Part shown: positions 15,459-34,127 of the stretch, in pieces
How positions within the stretch are numbered: the first letter of the stretch is position 1
Layout: every line of letters begins with the position of its first letter
Assembly (NCBI RefSeq): GCF_003431825.1
Contig: NZ_CP020083.1
Coordinates: 806,001-870,000, forward strand
From: Blastomonas fulva
GTDB lineage: Bacteria > Pseudomonadota > Alphaproteobacteria > Sphingomonadales > Sphingomonadaceae
Direction: 5' to 3'
Length of the DNA stretch: 64,000 nt
Program-made: the position numbers and the translations under genes
The notes under the pieces: model-generated
Database searches by the model: none
Told to the model about the DNA's origin: nothing
What the model saw: the letters and a program-made list of their open reading frames with translations, nothing else

Positions 15459-15485
15459 TTAATGGATCGCGGAGACTGCCGTTAA
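15459..15485 (+). promoter_or_regulatory. Distal sigma-28 promoter reading toward fliC
   Basis: The plus strand carries CTTAA at 15458-15462, then exactly 15 nt, then GCCGTTAA at 15478-15485. It equals the fliD and flgM promoters in both boxes. Transcription would start near 15492 and run about 320 nt to fliC, crossing the sigma-54 promoter of flbD that faces it. Confidence 0.7.
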
Positions 15486-21648: not shown

Positions 21649-22206
21649 TTAGTTACCAAGAATGGTGGCGCGGCCCGGTTCGATGATCCGCACGAAGATC
21701 GGCTTGCCCCTGGGCTCGTCGCGCACGGGGATGACTTCGCCCACGCGGCCGTCCTTGTCGGCGATCATCACCCGCGACAGCGAGAAGCTGGGGCGCTCGA
21801 CGGTGAGCAGGATCGGCTCGCCGCGCTTGATGCCTTCCTGGCCCAGTCCTGCGGCCCCACGCTGCAGCGGCGCGCGCGAGGCGCTCGCCTGCGCAGGTTC
21901 GACGGCAAGATCGAGCGGAACGCGGATGCGCCAGCCCAGCGTCGGGCAGCGCACCGCAGCAGCGCCCATGTCGGGGCCGGTGATCTCCAGCGCCACCGGG
22001 CAGGCCTTGAGCTTGAGGCGGCGGTCGACCAGCGCGCGTGCGCCGCCCGGCTGTCCGACCTCTGCGCCCATGGTGGCGGCGACGAGAACGTCGATCTCGC
22101 CCAGATTCTGCATCCCCGGTGTCTGGGGCTGCGCCGTGGCCGACGCGGATATGGCGAGGGCCGGGATCAGGGCCAGCGCGGCCATTGCTGATTTGGGAGC
22201 GAACAT
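21649..22206 (-). CDS. flgA: Flagellar P-ring assembly chaperone FlgA
   Basis: FlgA is the periplasmic chaperone needed to build the FlgI P ring. The start is ATG 22206 (MFAPKSAMAALALIPALAIS), with AAAGGA 7 nt upstream and the sigma-54 start near 22229; the frame upstream of this would begin at or before the transcription start. The 185-residue protein has a signal peptide (about residues 1-25) and the C-terminal SAF/FlgA domain ending with GKPIFVRIIEPGRATILGN. It lies downstream of the motB-like gene but has its own promoter inside or just after that gene's end. Confidence 0.93.
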   Translation of the reverse strand: MFAPKSAMAALALIPALAISASATAQPQTPGMQNLGEIDVLVAATMGAEVGQPGGARALVDRRLKLKACPVALEITGPDMGAAAVRCPTLGWRIRVPLDLAVEPAQASASRAPLQRGAAGLGQEGIKRGEPILLTVERPSFSLSRVMIADKDGRVGEVIPVRDEPRGKPIFVRIIEPGRATILGN

Positions 22207-22239: not shown

Positions 22240-22255
22240 AGCAAGGTCCGTGCCA
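22240..22255 (-). promoter_or_regulatory. Sigma-54 promoter of flgA
   Basis: The minus strand reads TGGCACGGACCTTGCT, a complete match to TGGCACG-N4-TTGCW. Most of it falls in the 57-base gap between the motB-like gene and flgA. Start of transcription would be near 22229. Confidence 0.9.
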
Positions 22256-22263
22256 GAATTCCG

Positions 22264-22761
22264 CTATTGCCGGGGCGCGGTTGCGCGCAGCGTGAGCGTG
22301 ACATCGCGCTCGCTGCCGGCAGAGCCGGTGCCGGGGCGGGCCAGATCGGGGACCATCGCGCTGTCGGCTACGCCCTGGTCCGCGAGCACGCGCATGATCG
22401 CTGCGGTGCGCGCGGCCGCCAGCTCCCACCTGTCGAGCCTCGAGGCGCCCTTTTCGGCCACCACCGGCACGATGATGCCGATTTCGACAGTTTTGCTTTC
22501 GGCAGGGCGGGCCTTGGCCCCCAAGGCAATGATATCCGCCACGCCCTGATCGGTGAGCCGTGCCTCCTGCGGCTCGAACAGCCTGGCGAGCTTGAGCGTG
22601 ACGCGCTCGGCCGATGCCGGTGCGCTGCTGCCGAAGCTGTCGGCCAGCGCTTCTGCCACCGCCGGGTGCCGATCGCCCACGCTGGCGATCATCGCCATCA
22701 CCCCGGTCATGATCAGGGCGAGGTCGAGAAACGAGACGGTGGTGCGCTGCGCGGGGGTCAT
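22264..22761 (-). CDS. Small MotB-like protein of second stator-like pair
   Basis: A 165-residue protein with one N-terminal transmembrane segment (SFLDLALIMTGVMAMIAS, about residues 9-26) carrying an Asp at the position expected for a MotB proton-binding residue. The rest resembles a shrunken and degenerate OmpA-like domain (VEIGIIVPVVAEKG, then DRWELAAARTAAIMRVLADQ). It is about half the length of ordinary MotB and lacks the usual plug segment. The ATG overlaps the stop of the motA-like gene by 4 nt, so the two are coupled. It is distinct from the main MotB at 33150-34127. Function as a stator, auxiliary stator or ExbD-like partner is inference. Confidence 0.7.
   Translation of the reverse strand: MTPAQRTTVSFLDLALIMTGVMAMIASVGDRHPAVAEALADSFGSSAPASAERVTLKLARLFEPQEARLTDQGVADIIALGAKARPAESKTVEIGIIVPVVAEKGASRLDRWELAAARTAAIMRVLADQGVADSAMVPDLARPGTGSAGSERDVTLTLRATAPRQ
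22317..22333. promoter_or_regulatory. Candidate FlbD enhancer dyad upstream of flgA
   Basis: CGGCA and TGCCG arms with a 7-nt spacer lie about 70 bases upstream of the flgA sigma-54 box, inside the end of the motB-like gene. The arms are the same as in the two dyads upstream of flgB. Confidence 0.4.
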
Positions 22762-23459
22762 GACGGCACGGCAGGCGTCCGCACCGTGCGCGGCTCTTCG
22801 GTCGCGACGCACAGCCCGCTGGCGGTGATGTCGGGATATTCGCGACGGCCGATCTCGATCAGCCGGCGCGCGGCGTCCTCTTCCCAGCCGATCTGCTCGC
22901 TGGCGATACGCGCCAGCCGCTGCGCGATCGGCCCTGCGATCAGGTTGGAGAGCACCAGCCCATATAAAGTGGTAAGCAGCGCCACCGCCATCGCGCGGCC
23001 GATCGAGGCGGCGTCCGAGACATTGCCGAACAGCAGGATCAGCCCGACGACGGTGCCCAGCATCCCCATGGCCGGCGCGCAATCGGCGACATTTTCCCAG
23101 AAGCGGACCATCGCGGTCAGCCGCGCGCGGCGATGCGCGCCCAGCCGCAGCATGGCTGCCTGAAAGCCGTCGAGCGAGCGGTTGTTGGCCATGGCATCGG
23201 CGGCGGCGGAGACGAACGCGCCGCCTGCCTTGACCCGGTCTGCGCAGCTGATGCCGCGGCTTTCGACCGTGTGCTCGATGCGCAGCACCGCGCGGTGCCC
23301 TGCATCGGCCTGGTCCTGCACCTTGATCCACAGCTCGCGGCGCAGCGCCGAAAAGCCGCTGAGCGCCGCCGCGGTGCCGTTCTGCACCCAGGCGACGGCA
23401 AAGCTGCCGCCTGCGACGCAGCCCAGCGCCAACGGATCAAGAAAGGCGGCAATCGTCAT
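22758..23459 (-). CDS. MotA/TolQ/ExbB-family proton channel protein (second stator-like pair)
   Basis: A 233-residue membrane protein of the MotA/TolQ/ExbB family. It has an N-terminal hydrophobic segment (about residues 5-22), a cytoplasmic stretch, and the typical C-terminal pair of helices (CAPAMGMLGTVVGLILLFG and MAVALLTTLYGLVLSNLIAG), the part that lines the ion channel in this family. It is divergent from the main MotA at 32283-33146. An AGGAC site lies 5 nt before ATG 23459. It is divergent from flgB, and a sigma-28 promoter at 23664-23690 points toward it, which would place the pair in the late motility class. Confidence 0.8.
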   Translation of the reverse strand: MTIAAFLDPLALGCVAGGSFAVAWVQNGTAAALSGFSALRRELWIKVQDQADAGHRAVLRIEHTVESRGISCADRVKAGGAFVSAAADAMANNRSLDGFQAAMLRLGAHRRARLTAMVRFWENVADCAPAMGMLGTVVGLILLFGNVSDAASIGRAMAVALLTTLYGLVLSNLIAGPIAQRLARIASEQIGWEEDAARRLIEIGRREYPDITASGLCVATEEPRTVRTPAVPS

Positions 23460-23501: not shown

Positions 23502-23540
23502 CGGCAAAAACCTGCCGCCCGACCGGCAAAAACCTGCCGC
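23502..23540. promoter_or_regulatory. Tandem candidate FlbD enhancer sites upstream of flgB
   Basis: The 17-mer CGGCAAAAACCTGCCGC occurs twice, at 23502-23518 and 23524-23540, with a period of 22 bp (two helix turns). Each copy is a dyad, CGGCA and TGCCG with a 6-nt spacer. They lie 75-110 bases upstream of the flgB sigma-54 box, the usual enhancer distance, and resemble the ftr elements bound by FlbD in Caulobacter as far as I recall them. Confidence 0.7.
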
Positions 23541-23614: not shown

Positions 23615-23630
23615 TGGCACGGCCATTGCT
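23615..23630 (+). promoter_or_regulatory. Sigma-54 promoter of flgBCDEFGHIJKL
   Basis: The plus strand reads TGGCACGGCCATTGCT, an exact match to TGGCACG-N4-TTGCW. Transcription would start near 23641, about 63 nt before the flgB ATG at 23704. Confidence 0.92.
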
Positions 23631-23663: not shown

Positions 23664-23690
23664 ATGACGGCAGATGCAGCCATTGGTTAA
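23664..23690 (-). promoter_or_regulatory. Sigma-28 promoter pointing to the motA-like/motB-like pair
   Basis: Minus strand CTTAA, 15 nt, GCCGTCAT. The -35 box and the GCCGT core match the other sigma-28 sites here. It faces the sigma-54 promoter of flgB. The leader to the motA-like gene would be about 200 nt and would contain the tandem dyads. Confidence 0.65.
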
Positions 23691-25166: not shown

Positions 25167-25997
25167 ATGTCCTTCGTCACCTCGCTGAGCGGCCTGAAAG
25201 CGGCCCAGACCGATCTTTCGGTCGTTTCCAACAACATCGCCAACGGCAACTCGATCGGCTTCAAGAAGAGCCGTGCTGCCTTTGGCGATCTTTTCGCATC
25301 CGCGCCCACGCAGAGCACCAAGTCGGTCGCCGGCCAGGGCGTGCGCCTCAACGGCATCGTCCAGCAGTTCACGCAGGGCTCGCTCAACTCGACCGATCGC
25401 ACGCTCGATCTGGCGGTCGCCGGCGACGGCTTCTTCGTCGTCAAGGGCCAGCCCCCGCGCGAGGCGCAGAGCTATACCCGCAACGGCTCGTTCTCGGTCA
25501 ATGTCGACCGCGAAGTCGTCGACAACACCGGCAACAAGGTGCAGCTGCTGCCGGTCAACGCTGCAGGCCAGGTCACCTCGACCGCCAATGCCGACATGTT
25601 CGATTTCGTGCTGCCCCAGACCGATCCCAACGATCCGTCCGCCGTGCTCTCCAACATCACCGTCGCCGATGACGGCGCGGTCACCGCGACCTTCTCCAAC
25701 GGCAGCCAGACCCGGCTGGGCGCGATTGCCATGGCAAGCTTCGCCGCGGTCGAGGGCCTTCGCCCGATCGGCGATTCGCACTGGCAGGCAACCGGCGATT
25801 CGGGCGTCGCGCTGCTCAACCAGGCCGGCAATGGCCCGCTGGGCACCGTCCGTTCGGGCACGCTGGAAGCGGCGAACATCGACCTGACCGAAGAGCTCGT
25901 CGCGCTGATCGCGGCGCAGCGCAACTTCCAGGCGAATGCCCAGGCGATCGAAACCGCCAACAACATGACCCAGACGATCGTCAACCTCCAGGTCTGA
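25167..25997 (+). CDS. flgE: Flagellar hook protein FlgE (short form)
   Basis: FlgE is the hook subunit. The N-terminal signature SLSGLKAAQTDLSVVSNNIA then NSIGFKKSRAAFGDLF and the C-terminal helix EELVALIAAQRNFQANAQAI are diagnostic. At 276 residues it is far shorter than the roughly 400 residues of enteric FlgE; the missing part falls in the central D1/D2 region, leaving the D0 helices and a compact core. FlgF and FlgG have similar lengths but are identified separately downstream, so this gene fills the hook position. A GAGGAGTAAG ribosome site precedes the ATG. Confidence 0.9.
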   Translation: MSFVTSLSGLKAAQTDLSVVSNNIANGNSIGFKKSRAAFGDLFASAPTQSTKSVAGQGVRLNGIVQQFTQGSLNSTDRTLDLAVAGDGFFVVKGQPPREAQSYTRNGSFSVNVDREVVDNTGNKVQLLPVNAAGQVTSTANADMFDFVLPQTDPNDPSAVLSNITVADDGAVTATFSNGSQTRLGAIAMASFAAVEGLRPIGDSHWQATGDSGVALLNQAGNGPLGTVRSGTLEAANIDLTEELVALIAAQRNFQANAQAIETANNMTQTIVNLQV

Positions 25998-32180: not shown

Positions 32181-32207
32181 TTAACCACGACTGGCGAAAG
32201 CCGTTCT
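32181..32207 (+). promoter_or_regulatory. Sigma-28 promoter of motA-motB
   Basis: CTTAA (32180-32184), 15 nt, GCCGTTCT (32200-32207). Transcription would start near 32214, about 70 nt before motA. The -10 box departs from the other sites in its last two bases. Confidence 0.72.
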
Positions 32208-32282
32208 ACGATCTGAACGGGCCGATTTGCGGCCCAATTGCGCCACCTTCGTGGTGCGATTTATCGGATCGAGGGAACCGCC

Positions 32283-33146
32283 ATGTTCGCTGCTATTGGC
32301 TTTGTCGTCCTGATTGTCATGGTGTTCGGCGGTTTCATTATCGCCGGGGGCAGCATGGGCGTCATCCTGCACGCCTTGCCGCTGGAAATGATGATCATCG
32401 GCGGCGCAGCTGCGGGCTCCATGCTGATCGGCAACTCCGGATCGCACCTCAAGGCCATCGGCGGCGGCGTCATGACGGCGTTCAAGGGCTCCAAATACAA
32501 GAAGCAGGATTTTCTCGACTGCATCTTCCTGGTGTCCAAGCTGATGAAGATGCTGCGCACGGAAGGCCCGGTGGCACTGGAACCGCATATCGAGGATCCG
32601 GCCAGCTCGCCGGTGTTTTCCGAATATCCCACGCTGCTCAAGGATTCGACGCTGGTCCACCTGATCTGCGATTCGCTGCGTCTGGTCGTCGTCTCGTCGG
32701 GCCAGCTCGATCCGCACGCGGTGGAGGACGTCGTCGATCAGGCGATCAAGACCCACCATCATGAAGCCATCGCACCTGCCGACGGCCTGCAGAACCTCGC
32801 CGATGCGCTGCCCGCACTGGGCATCGTCGCGGCGGTTCTCGGCATCGTCAAGACGATGGGTTCGATCGACAAGCCGCCCGCCATTCTGGGCGAGATGATC
32901 GGTTCGGCACTGGTGGGAACGTTCCTGGGGATTTTCCTGGCCTATGGCCTGGTCGGTCCGCTTGCCAACCGCTGCCGCCAGGTGATCGAGGCCGATGGCG
33001 CGATGTACCACGTTGCCAAACAGATCATCATCGCATCCTTGCACGGCCACCCGCAGCCGCTGGTCATCGAGGCCGCGCGCTCGAGCCTGGGCCATGCCAA
33101 CCAGCCGACGTTCGCCGACGTGTTCGACGGCATGCGGGGTCGTTAA
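32283..33146 (+). CDS. motA: Flagellar motor stator protein MotA
   Basis: MotA forms the pentameric part of the main proton-driven stator and pushes on FliG. The start ATG 32283 (MFAAIGFVVLIVMVFGGFII) has GAGGGA 6 nt upstream and gives 287 residues; an upstream in-frame ATG at 32238 lacks a ribosome site. Four transmembrane helices are visible, two near residues 3-50 and two near 170-225 (ALPALGIVAAVLGIVKTMGS and ALVGTFLGIFLAYGLVGPLA) with the conserved prolines, separated by the large cytoplasmic loop. It is followed by motB after 3 nt. Confidence 0.97.
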   Translation: MFAAIGFVVLIVMVFGGFIIAGGSMGVILHALPLEMMIIGGAAAGSMLIGNSGSHLKAIGGGVMTAFKGSKYKKQDFLDCIFLVSKLMKMLRTEGPVALEPHIEDPASSPVFSEYPTLLKDSTLVHLICDSLRLVVVSSGQLDPHAVEDVVDQAIKTHHHEAIAPADGLQNLADALPALGIVAAVLGIVKTMGSIDKPPAILGEMIGSALVGTFLGIFLAYGLVGPLANRCRQVIEADGAMYHVAKQIIIASLHGHPQPLVIEAARSSLGHANQPTFADVFDGMRGR

Positions 33147-33149
33147 GCC

Positions 33150-34127
33150 ATGGCCGCCAAGCGCAAGCCCGATCCGGTCGAGAATGTTCGCCCGATCATC
33201 GTCAAGAAGATCATCGAGGAAGGCCATGGCGGCCATCACGGCGGTGCTTGGAAGGTGGCCTATGCCGACTTCGTGACCGCAATGATGGCGTTCTTCCTGC
33301 TGATGTGGCTGCTTGGCGCCACCGAGGAAAAGGACCGCAAGGCGATTGCCGACTATTTCGCGCCCACGATGGTGCAGTTGAAGAACGGCAGCGCGGGCAC
33401 CAACGGCCTGTTCGGCGGCGAATCGATCGTCGATCGCGACAGCTATGCCAAGCGCGCGTCACAGACCGGCACCCGAGCGATCACCATTCCGCAGGATGCA
33501 ACCGGCACCAATGACGACAAGGGCAAGGCGGCACGCAGCGCGCAGCAGGCGCAGTTCGAGCAGCTGAAGAAGGAAATCGAGCAGCGGCTAGAAGCGCGCA
33601 AGGACCTGCAGAAGCTGATGAAGAACGTCCGCTTCACCGACACGCGCGAGGGTCTGCGGATCGATCTGGTCGACGAGGCGGACTTCAGCATGTTCGCATT
33701 GTCCACCGACGCACTGGTGCCCAAGGCCGCCGAACTGCTGCGCGAGGTGGCGCAGGTCATCAACGGCATGCCCAATCCGGTGATCATCCGCGGGCACACC
33801 GATGCGCTGCCTTATGCCTCGGGCAAGACGATGAACAACTGGATGCTCTCGACCGCGCGCGCCGAGGCGACCCGCAAGGCGCTGGTGGTGGGCGGGATCA
33901 ACCCCGGCCAGGTCGCGCGCATCGAGGGCGTGGCCGACAAGGAGCCGTTCAACCCGCAGGACCGCAACGATCCCGCCAACCGCCGCATGTCGATCACGCT
34001 TGCCTTTACGGGCAGCGCAGCCGGCGCGGCTGGTGCATCGGGAGCACCTCTGCCCGGAAGCTCAGGCGGATCGACCGCGCCTGCCCTGCCTTCAAGGCCG
34101 GTACCGGCACCGGTGCCGAAGAAATAG
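33150..34127 (+). CDS. motB: Flagellar motor stator protein MotB
   Basis: MotB anchors the stator to peptidoglycan and carries the proton-binding Asp. In this 325-residue protein the single transmembrane helix reads WKVAYADFVTAMMAFFLLMW (about residues 34-53) with the key Asp in YADF. The OmpA-like domain (about residues 160-290) contains IIRGHTDALPYASGKTMNNW and LSTARAEATRKALVVGGINP. The tail is Ala/Gly/Pro-rich. It lies 3 nt after motA and its stop is only 5 nt from the convergent brnA stop, the right boundary of the flagellar island. Confidence 0.97.
   Translation: MAAKRKPDPVENVRPIIVKKIIEEGHGGHHGGAWKVAYADFVTAMMAFFLLMWLLGATEEKDRKAIADYFAPTMVQLKNGSAGTNGLFGGESIVDRDSYAKRASQTGTRAITIPQDATGTNDDKGKAARSAQQAQFEQLKKEIEQRLEARKDLQKLMKNVRFTDTREGLRIDLVDEADFSMFALSTDALVPKAAELLREVAQVINGMPNPVIIRGHTDALPYASGKTMNNWMLSTARAEATRKALVVGGINPGQVARIEGVADKEPFNPQDRNDPANRRMSITLAFTGSAAGAAGASGAPLPGSSGGSTAPALPSRPVPAPVPKK

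Follow-up and report, generated by a model that had tools for sequence, protein, structure and literature searches.

The closest known system to the gene pair described here is the PomAB/TGI4-type flagellar stator, with a four-helix torque interface, represented by PomAB of Vibrio and its solved structures 8brd and 8zyv; for the defining traits of TGI4-type flagellar ion transporter (FIT) stators we follow the account in PMC12505986. Dual-stator systems, such as those of Pseudomonas (MotAB and MotCD) and Bacillus (MotAB and MotPS), likewise provide two stator-type pairs for one flagellar motor, and the second stator is reported there to drive the motor. The ExbBD and TolQR energy couplers share with our pair three transmembrane (TM) helices and a short B subunit. 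The pair, A and B, lies in a flagellar island of Blastomonas fulva, within a 64,000-nt window (contig NZ_CP020083.1, positions 806,001 to 870,000; coordinates below are positions in this window). Just as a sequence-only reading had described it, the pair consists of open reading frames of 233 and 165 residues that overlap by 4 nt, and it sits between flgA and the divergent flgB in an island that also has a normal motA-motB.

We consider A-B an auxiliary or modulating, flagellum-dedicated and reduced paralogue of a PomAB-type stator, its function being predicted, and give this a probability of a little under one half (about 0.48). An auxiliary or regulatory stator had been among the earlier suggestions and is now the leading one. 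Computation establishes the family, the fold, the absence of TM1, the short B subunit, the ion-path residues, the conserved place, the promoter motifs and purifying selection. The retained cytoplasmic domain, the flagellar promoter motifs and the conserved ion path together point to an ion-driven unit at the flagellar base. Our literature searches found no described function or report of the A-B pair, in line with what had been stated earlier, and turned up little experimental work on sphingomonad flagella. Many sphingomonads carry a second, cut-down motor-like gene pair beside their normal flagellar motor proteins; it seems to be expressed along with the flagellum yet lacks parts that a usual motor unit presumably requires, and its job is a testable question.

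The proposed MotA/ExbB likeness of A holds, with 73.6 bits against Pfam MotA_ExbB (PF01618; cut-off 22.9); against NCBIfam PomA it scores 92.5 bits, far under the cut-off of 341. The fold of the A model is of PomA type: 207 residues superpose on PomA, and residue 1, at the start of a chain with three TM segments, superposes on PomA residue 24. Between the first two TM helices, by our count, the model has cytoplasmic helices at residues 29-44, 47-68, 70-75 and 81-92, matching the cytoplasmic domain of at least four helices that marks TGI4-type stators. It also has their unbroken third helix with an acidic-Pro motif, since helix 96-145 is continuous and all 34 A proteins (29 from pair loci and 5 divergent) have Asp or Glu at 126 and Pro at 129. 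In PomA numbering, Pro151, Thr158, Gly189 and Pro199 are invariant in the 29 pair proteins and the 5 erythrobacter-like ones, a group introduced below, and Thr186 is Thr in 26 and Ser in 3 of the 29.

The membrane aspartate that had been noticed in B is Asp13; all 28 B proteins aligned, that of the window included, have it. The OmpA-like domain had been called degenerate. The Pfam OmpA score of B is 18.5, below the cut-off of 27.2, and in its model the OmpA-like fold is complete and compact rather than broken, and closest to MotB; the NCBIfam MotD score is 26.4 bits, far under the cut-off of 283. Among relatives, B exceeds the Pfam OmpA cut-off in L038 and L045 and falls below it in L051 and L052. 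This domain may bind peptidoglycan. In the model only about 20 residues separate the TM segment from the OmpA domain, and the short helix in that region could be a plug. Against two congeners, the ratio of nonsynonymous to synonymous substitution rates (dN/dS) lies at 0.18-0.27 in A and at 0.21-0.27 in B, similar to flgA and flgM and above flgB and flgC, and both genes are under purifying selection.

A sigma-28-type promoter pointing to the pair had been proposed as well, and the motif TTAA-N15-GCCGTC (Table 1) supports it. The broader class TWAA-N14-16-G[CT]CGT[TC] precedes A in 33 of 54 loci, a set that includes near-identical species pairs, against a first-order Markov expectation of 0.39% and 0/54 on the opposite strand. 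This conserved form emerged from comparing relatives; scans of the region with the E. coli sigma-28 consensus and for sigma-70 gave no promoter for the pair. The window has six sigma-28-type motifs: before motA, flgM, the pair and fliD (identified by Pfam), inside flgI, and at 15459-15483. Eleven Sphingomonas-like loci (L050-L057, L106, L113, L114) have a sigma-54-type site resembling TGGC[AC]C-N5-TTGC in place of the sigma-28-type motif, possibly an expression-class switch for the same genes, to judge by these motifs. The sites begin 27-29 nt before the chosen start codon, so that either a transcript from them would be nearly leaderless or the true start lies further in. The loose sigma-54 pattern has a 7% chance rate anywhere in 260 nt, and its match at -112 in L029 looks like chance. 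Neither strict pattern, sigma-28 or sigma-54, matches L031, L048, L049, L073, L075, L079, L080, L093, L100 or L130.

A promoter motif shared with motA, together with the smaller size of the partner, would suit a decoy or inhibitor: B or A would enter MotA/MotB complexes and make them fewer or less active. This suggestion of the sequence-only reading is weakened and we hold it to be quite improbable: the window MotA belongs to the MotA1 family and its identity to the rows of the A tree does not exceed 23%, and both partners of the pair keep an ion path of their own.

The promoters also bear on an energy coupler of TolQR/ExbBD kind, working on the ring, the rod or the local wall beside flgA and the lytic transglycosylase of the cluster. 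The architecture shared with ExbBD and TolQR and the position of flgA as the next gene favour it, but it is improbable, because the sigma-28-type promoter is here the class of the late genes fliD, flgM and motA, flgA has a sigma-54-type site of its own, and five loci without the pair (L175, L178, L179, L183, L184) retain flgA, flgH, flgI and the transglycosylase. The role in P-ring or rod assembly that had been suggested earlier loses ground on the same three counts, although not decisively, because the eleven Sphingomonas-like loci do have a sigma-54-type site for the pair. Fold and sequence likewise place the pair closer to flagellar stators than to TolQR/ExbBD, B is OmpA/MotB-like, and A, with its unbroken helix 96-145, has neither the condensed cytoplasmic domain nor the broken long helix of those couplers. 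A plain TolQR/ExbBD system, the close similarity that would have told against the earlier reading, was rejected on these grounds of fold and sequence. No TonB/TolA-type third partner stands beside the pair, whose neighbours are flgB and flgA in the window and in the loci with both flanks read (elsewhere it was not sought). A relation to Zorya was considered too: B has a weak ZorB3 match (E 0.008) and A none, ZorAB fold scores are about 7-8, and the flanks are flagellar.

As an auxiliary or modulating stator, the pair would be made together with late flagellar genes, and five A subunits would surround a B dimer, with ions passing at Asp13 of B and turning the A ring. The cytoplasmic helices of A would face FliG in the C-ring with a rewritten charge pattern, a basic residue at 90 and Asp96 replacing Arg88 and Glu96. 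The OmpA head of B would lie near the inner membrane, holding a nearby structure or peptidoglycan. Rather than being the main engine, the pair would most likely serve next to MotAB, either as a brake or as a stator that is auxiliary, low in torque or condition-dependent.

Several observations weigh against such a stator role or against its derivation from PomAB, and they concern the A subunit, the B subunit, the tree of A and the distribution of the pair. The A subunit does not have the square fold of four TM helices of the TGI4 type, TM1 being absent. Even with the upstream open frame included, a TM1-like hydrophobic stretch is missing from 25 of 29 pair and 5 of 5 divergent A proteins, and the remaining four pair rows (L043, L050, L051, L093) have a hydrophobic upstream window that may or may not be a TM1; it is present in 30/30 PomA-like references, 28 of which have a long B called behind them, and in 14/14 orphan relatives. 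Arg88 of PomA is Arg in only 5 of the 29 pair proteins, whereas all 30 references and all 14 orphans keep it. Position 90 is basic (Arg, Lys or His) in 26 of the 29, and where PomA has Glu96 the pair has Asp96-Arg97 (position 96 is Asp in 28 and Glu in one; Arg97 in 26). The torque residues known as R90/E98 in E. coli and R88/E96 in PomA are not conserved in the A family. The window MotA, on the other hand, carries R-x7-E at the torque site, and the window FliG keeps the Arg and Asp-Asp that match MotA, at what we take to be the E. coli positions, so the main stator looks ordinary.

In B, the plug and long linker of TGI4-type stators are not found. The span from the membrane Asp to the OmpA Arg is 105 residues in the window B (median 99, range 70-154, in 27 measured B proteins). 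The window MotB has 197, and 42 ordinary B subunits range over 156-326 with a median of 211. The window B thus lies under all 42, and its periplasmic span is about half that of PomB. The shortness of B stressed by the earlier reading stands; that B would fail to reach peptidoglycan is a further step, which the span suggests at most. These spans were measured by regular expression, which apparently picked the wrong Arg in L050 and L053 (70 and 78); it found no Arg in six B proteins and yielded no value for 5 of the 47 B proteins used as references. MotCD and MotPS, which stand outside this comparison, are of full length. In two small-genome relatives (L048 and L049, from G241 and G201) B is 210 and 218 residues long, with a longer linker and spans of 151-154. 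The B proteins of five erythrobacter-like genomes have no Pfam OmpA/MotB match, and wall anchoring therefore seems dispensable in that group.

With two tested traits of the TGI4 lineage lacking (the square fold and the long linker, as set out in PMC12505986) and the torque Arg lost, the pair is a variant and not a plain stator. An alternative that we regard as less likely is a non-torque, flagellum-bound and ion-driven unit, in which the rotary core works on a periplasmic or basal-body partner. Stator recruitment, the FliL ring, motor locking, or load or ion sensing are candidate jobs that would need neither the torque Arg nor wall anchoring. Conservation of the ion path and the B Asp while Arg88 was lost, the short B span and the OmpA domain unrecognisable in the erythrobacter-like group would all fit such a unit. 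A purely periplasmic transducer would, however, find the retained four-helix cytoplasmic domain superfluous, with Asp96 kept in 28 and Arg97 in 26 of 29 proteins; no partner was identified, and FliL is present in 11/11 genomes tested, pair-bearing and pairless alike. The data do not discriminate between such a unit and an auxiliary or modulating stator. More broadly, it is possible, if doubtful, that a 5:2 rotary unit without torque contact or stator reach does something other than turn the rotor, such as gating, recruiting or locking MotAB or basal-body work; if true, this would be a further use of the machine besides flagellar stators and Tol/Ton couplers. Conserved and regulated, yet without TM1, the torque Arg and the linker while retaining the ion path and cytoplasmic domain, the pair offers a natural experiment on stator requirements. 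With it one can ask directly if torque depends on the square fold and the Arg, and if the 5:2 machine serves another purpose at the base of the flagellum.

The ancestry of A is the third point. An ExbB/TolQ-rooted tree, in which the outgroup and MotA branches are very long, puts the pair A proteins outside the PomA-like rows, on the outgroup's side of the branch (support 87). An unrooted tree without MotA and ExbB/TolQ shows three separate groups: the pair family on one side of a branch (98, starred), and likewise the orphans (99, starred) and the PomA-like rows (92). The rooted tree omits L030, L035, L040 and L042, and the unrooted one additionally omits L144. Judged from these trees, A may have arisen inside the PomA-like group, from an orphan MotA, or beside both, and descent within PomA is a candidate only. 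The orphans (L058-L071, from other families of the order) are PomA-like genes in a flagellar cluster, between fliG and a flbD/fleQ-like gene. Unlike A they have both TM1 and Arg88, no MotB-like or short partner was found behind them, and they form a clade separate from A (99-100, starred), with 25-28% identity to A in the six compared. An orphan second motA in Phaeobacter inhibens is reported in PMC12363192 to be more than 12-fold up in ctrA and cckA mutants.

As to distribution, a search with the single A sequence gave matches in 212 of 296 genomes of the order, many of them other MotA or TolQ proteins, and a profile of 29 relatives gave strong A matches in 96 genomes of the window's family. 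A fliF match is present in 127 family genomes (199 fliF matches in total, three below the family cut-off), and 94 of the 96 belong to that set; the other two have MotA1. Genomes were counted as pair-positive at a profile E <= 1e-26 inside the family, the weakest counted being G030 (1.3e-26), and G175 (4.5e-17) was scored as lacking the pair; outside the family the profile matches orphan proteins up to about 1e-50 and the threshold is meaningless. The pair is hence no oddity of one genome, an idea we rejected, nor is it absent from other flagellated sphingomonads, a finding that would have counted against the sequence-only reading. Gene order was read in 35 of the 96 genomes: flgB adjoins A in all 35 and flgA lies behind B in 32; B was called in 33, and L035 and L056 end at contig edges. 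Among the 33 loci in which B was called, 29 show the 4-nt overlap, starts near that place being favoured by the script used. A further 27 loci, including named Sphingobium, Sphingomonas and Sphingosinicella records, and some apparently of the same species as earlier ones (e.g., L083/L038, L090/L044), have flgB and flgA flanks in 27/27 and B in 26/27, none being found in L098. In L095 (Sphingobium soli), B was matched as two overlapping pieces, which looks like a frame shift or a sequencing error. A plasmid of Qipengyuania citrea carries the pair annotated as 'MotA/TolQ/ExbB proton channel family protein' and 'hypothetical protein'; its A is 77% identical to that of L072 and groups with the divergent L072-L077 (100, starred), for which reason we call that group erythrobacter-like. 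Nine Sphingobium strains described as non-motile are reported in PMC4289293 to carry flagellar genes, and the pair may accordingly occur in strains of unclear motility.

The fourth point is loss. The pair is missing from 33 of the 127 fliF-bearing family genomes, some of which share the same flagellar island, and the pair is thus not needed for having that island. In G059, G080, G267, G268 and G035, flgA stands directly next to flgB with no pair between, and no A or B match was found beside flgB in G155, G238, G245, G279 and G287. Seven flagellar proteins from 35 loci, 25 pair-bearing and 10 pairless, gave a tree on which two changes suffice: a pairless clade of four on one side of the midpoint root, two of whose members are long branches, and a nested pairless clade of six. 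This clade with the same island and no pair, the missing TM1 and the lost torque Arg are all observations that the earlier reading had not foreseen. A decaying relic of an old PomAB stator is hardly credible. Long branches, the absence of TM1 and the torque Arg, and an OmpA domain unrecognisable in one group would agree with decay, but dN/dS is well under 1, and gene order and promoter motifs are conserved.

The tandem palindromes near flgB (Table 1) recur in relatives. Allowing at most one mismatch within 330 nt upstream of flgB, 37 of the 38 pair loci have at least one copy and 25 have a tandem, against 0/6 nested pairless loci and a Markov control of 5.9% (single) and 0% (tandem). They are probably activator sites, and they may serve flgB, A or both. 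In pairless-clade islands L158, L159 and L168, a fleQ-like gene 36-42% identical to that of the window adjoins motB; a regulator swap may have accompanied loss of the pair in the nested pairless clade.

Table 1. Features of the A-B locus and of the normal motor genes in the window.
Feature	Position	Strand	Remarks
A subunit, 233-residue MotA/PomA-type protein	22758..23459	-	three TM helices, no TM1, four-helix cytoplasmic domain
B subunit, 165-residue MotB-like protein	22264..22761	-	one TM with Asp13, short helix 33-42, compact OmpA fold 52-161
4-nt overlap, A stop / B start	22758..22761	-	
sigma-28-type motif TTAA-N15-GCCGTC toward A	23666..23690	-	begins 231 nt upstream of A ATG
two tandem palindromes CGGCA-N6-TGCCG, 22-nt spacing	23502..23539	.	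upstream of A and of the flgB sigma-54 site
sigma-54-type site of divergent flgB (TGGCACGGCCATTGCT)	23615..23630	+	
sigma-54-type site between B and flgA (TGGCACGGACCTTGCT)	22240..22255	-	
flgA, downstream neighbour of B	21649..22206	-	start set at ATG after sigma-54 site
sigma-28-type motif before motA	32181..32205	+	matches the form found before A
normal motA (MotA1 family) and motB of the same flagellar island	32238..34127	+	

Within the normal motor genes, motA (32238-33146) scores 345 bits against TIGR03818 (cut-off 303.8) and is followed by motB (33150-34127). Four proteins of the genome match PF01618: A, the normal MotA, a TolQ (243.7 bits against a cut-off of 221) and a second TolQ/ExbB-type protein that scores below the cut-offs. 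Other pairless genomes of the family (e.g., G253 and G275) carry a different flagellar gene set, and such sets were seen in G053, G190, G253, G275, G278:C5 and G290:C9 (L160-L167, L170-L172); G278 and G290 have theirs in addition to the pair-bearing one. The FlgE-like hook gene of the window (25167-25997) has a product of only 276 residues, about the size of FlgG.
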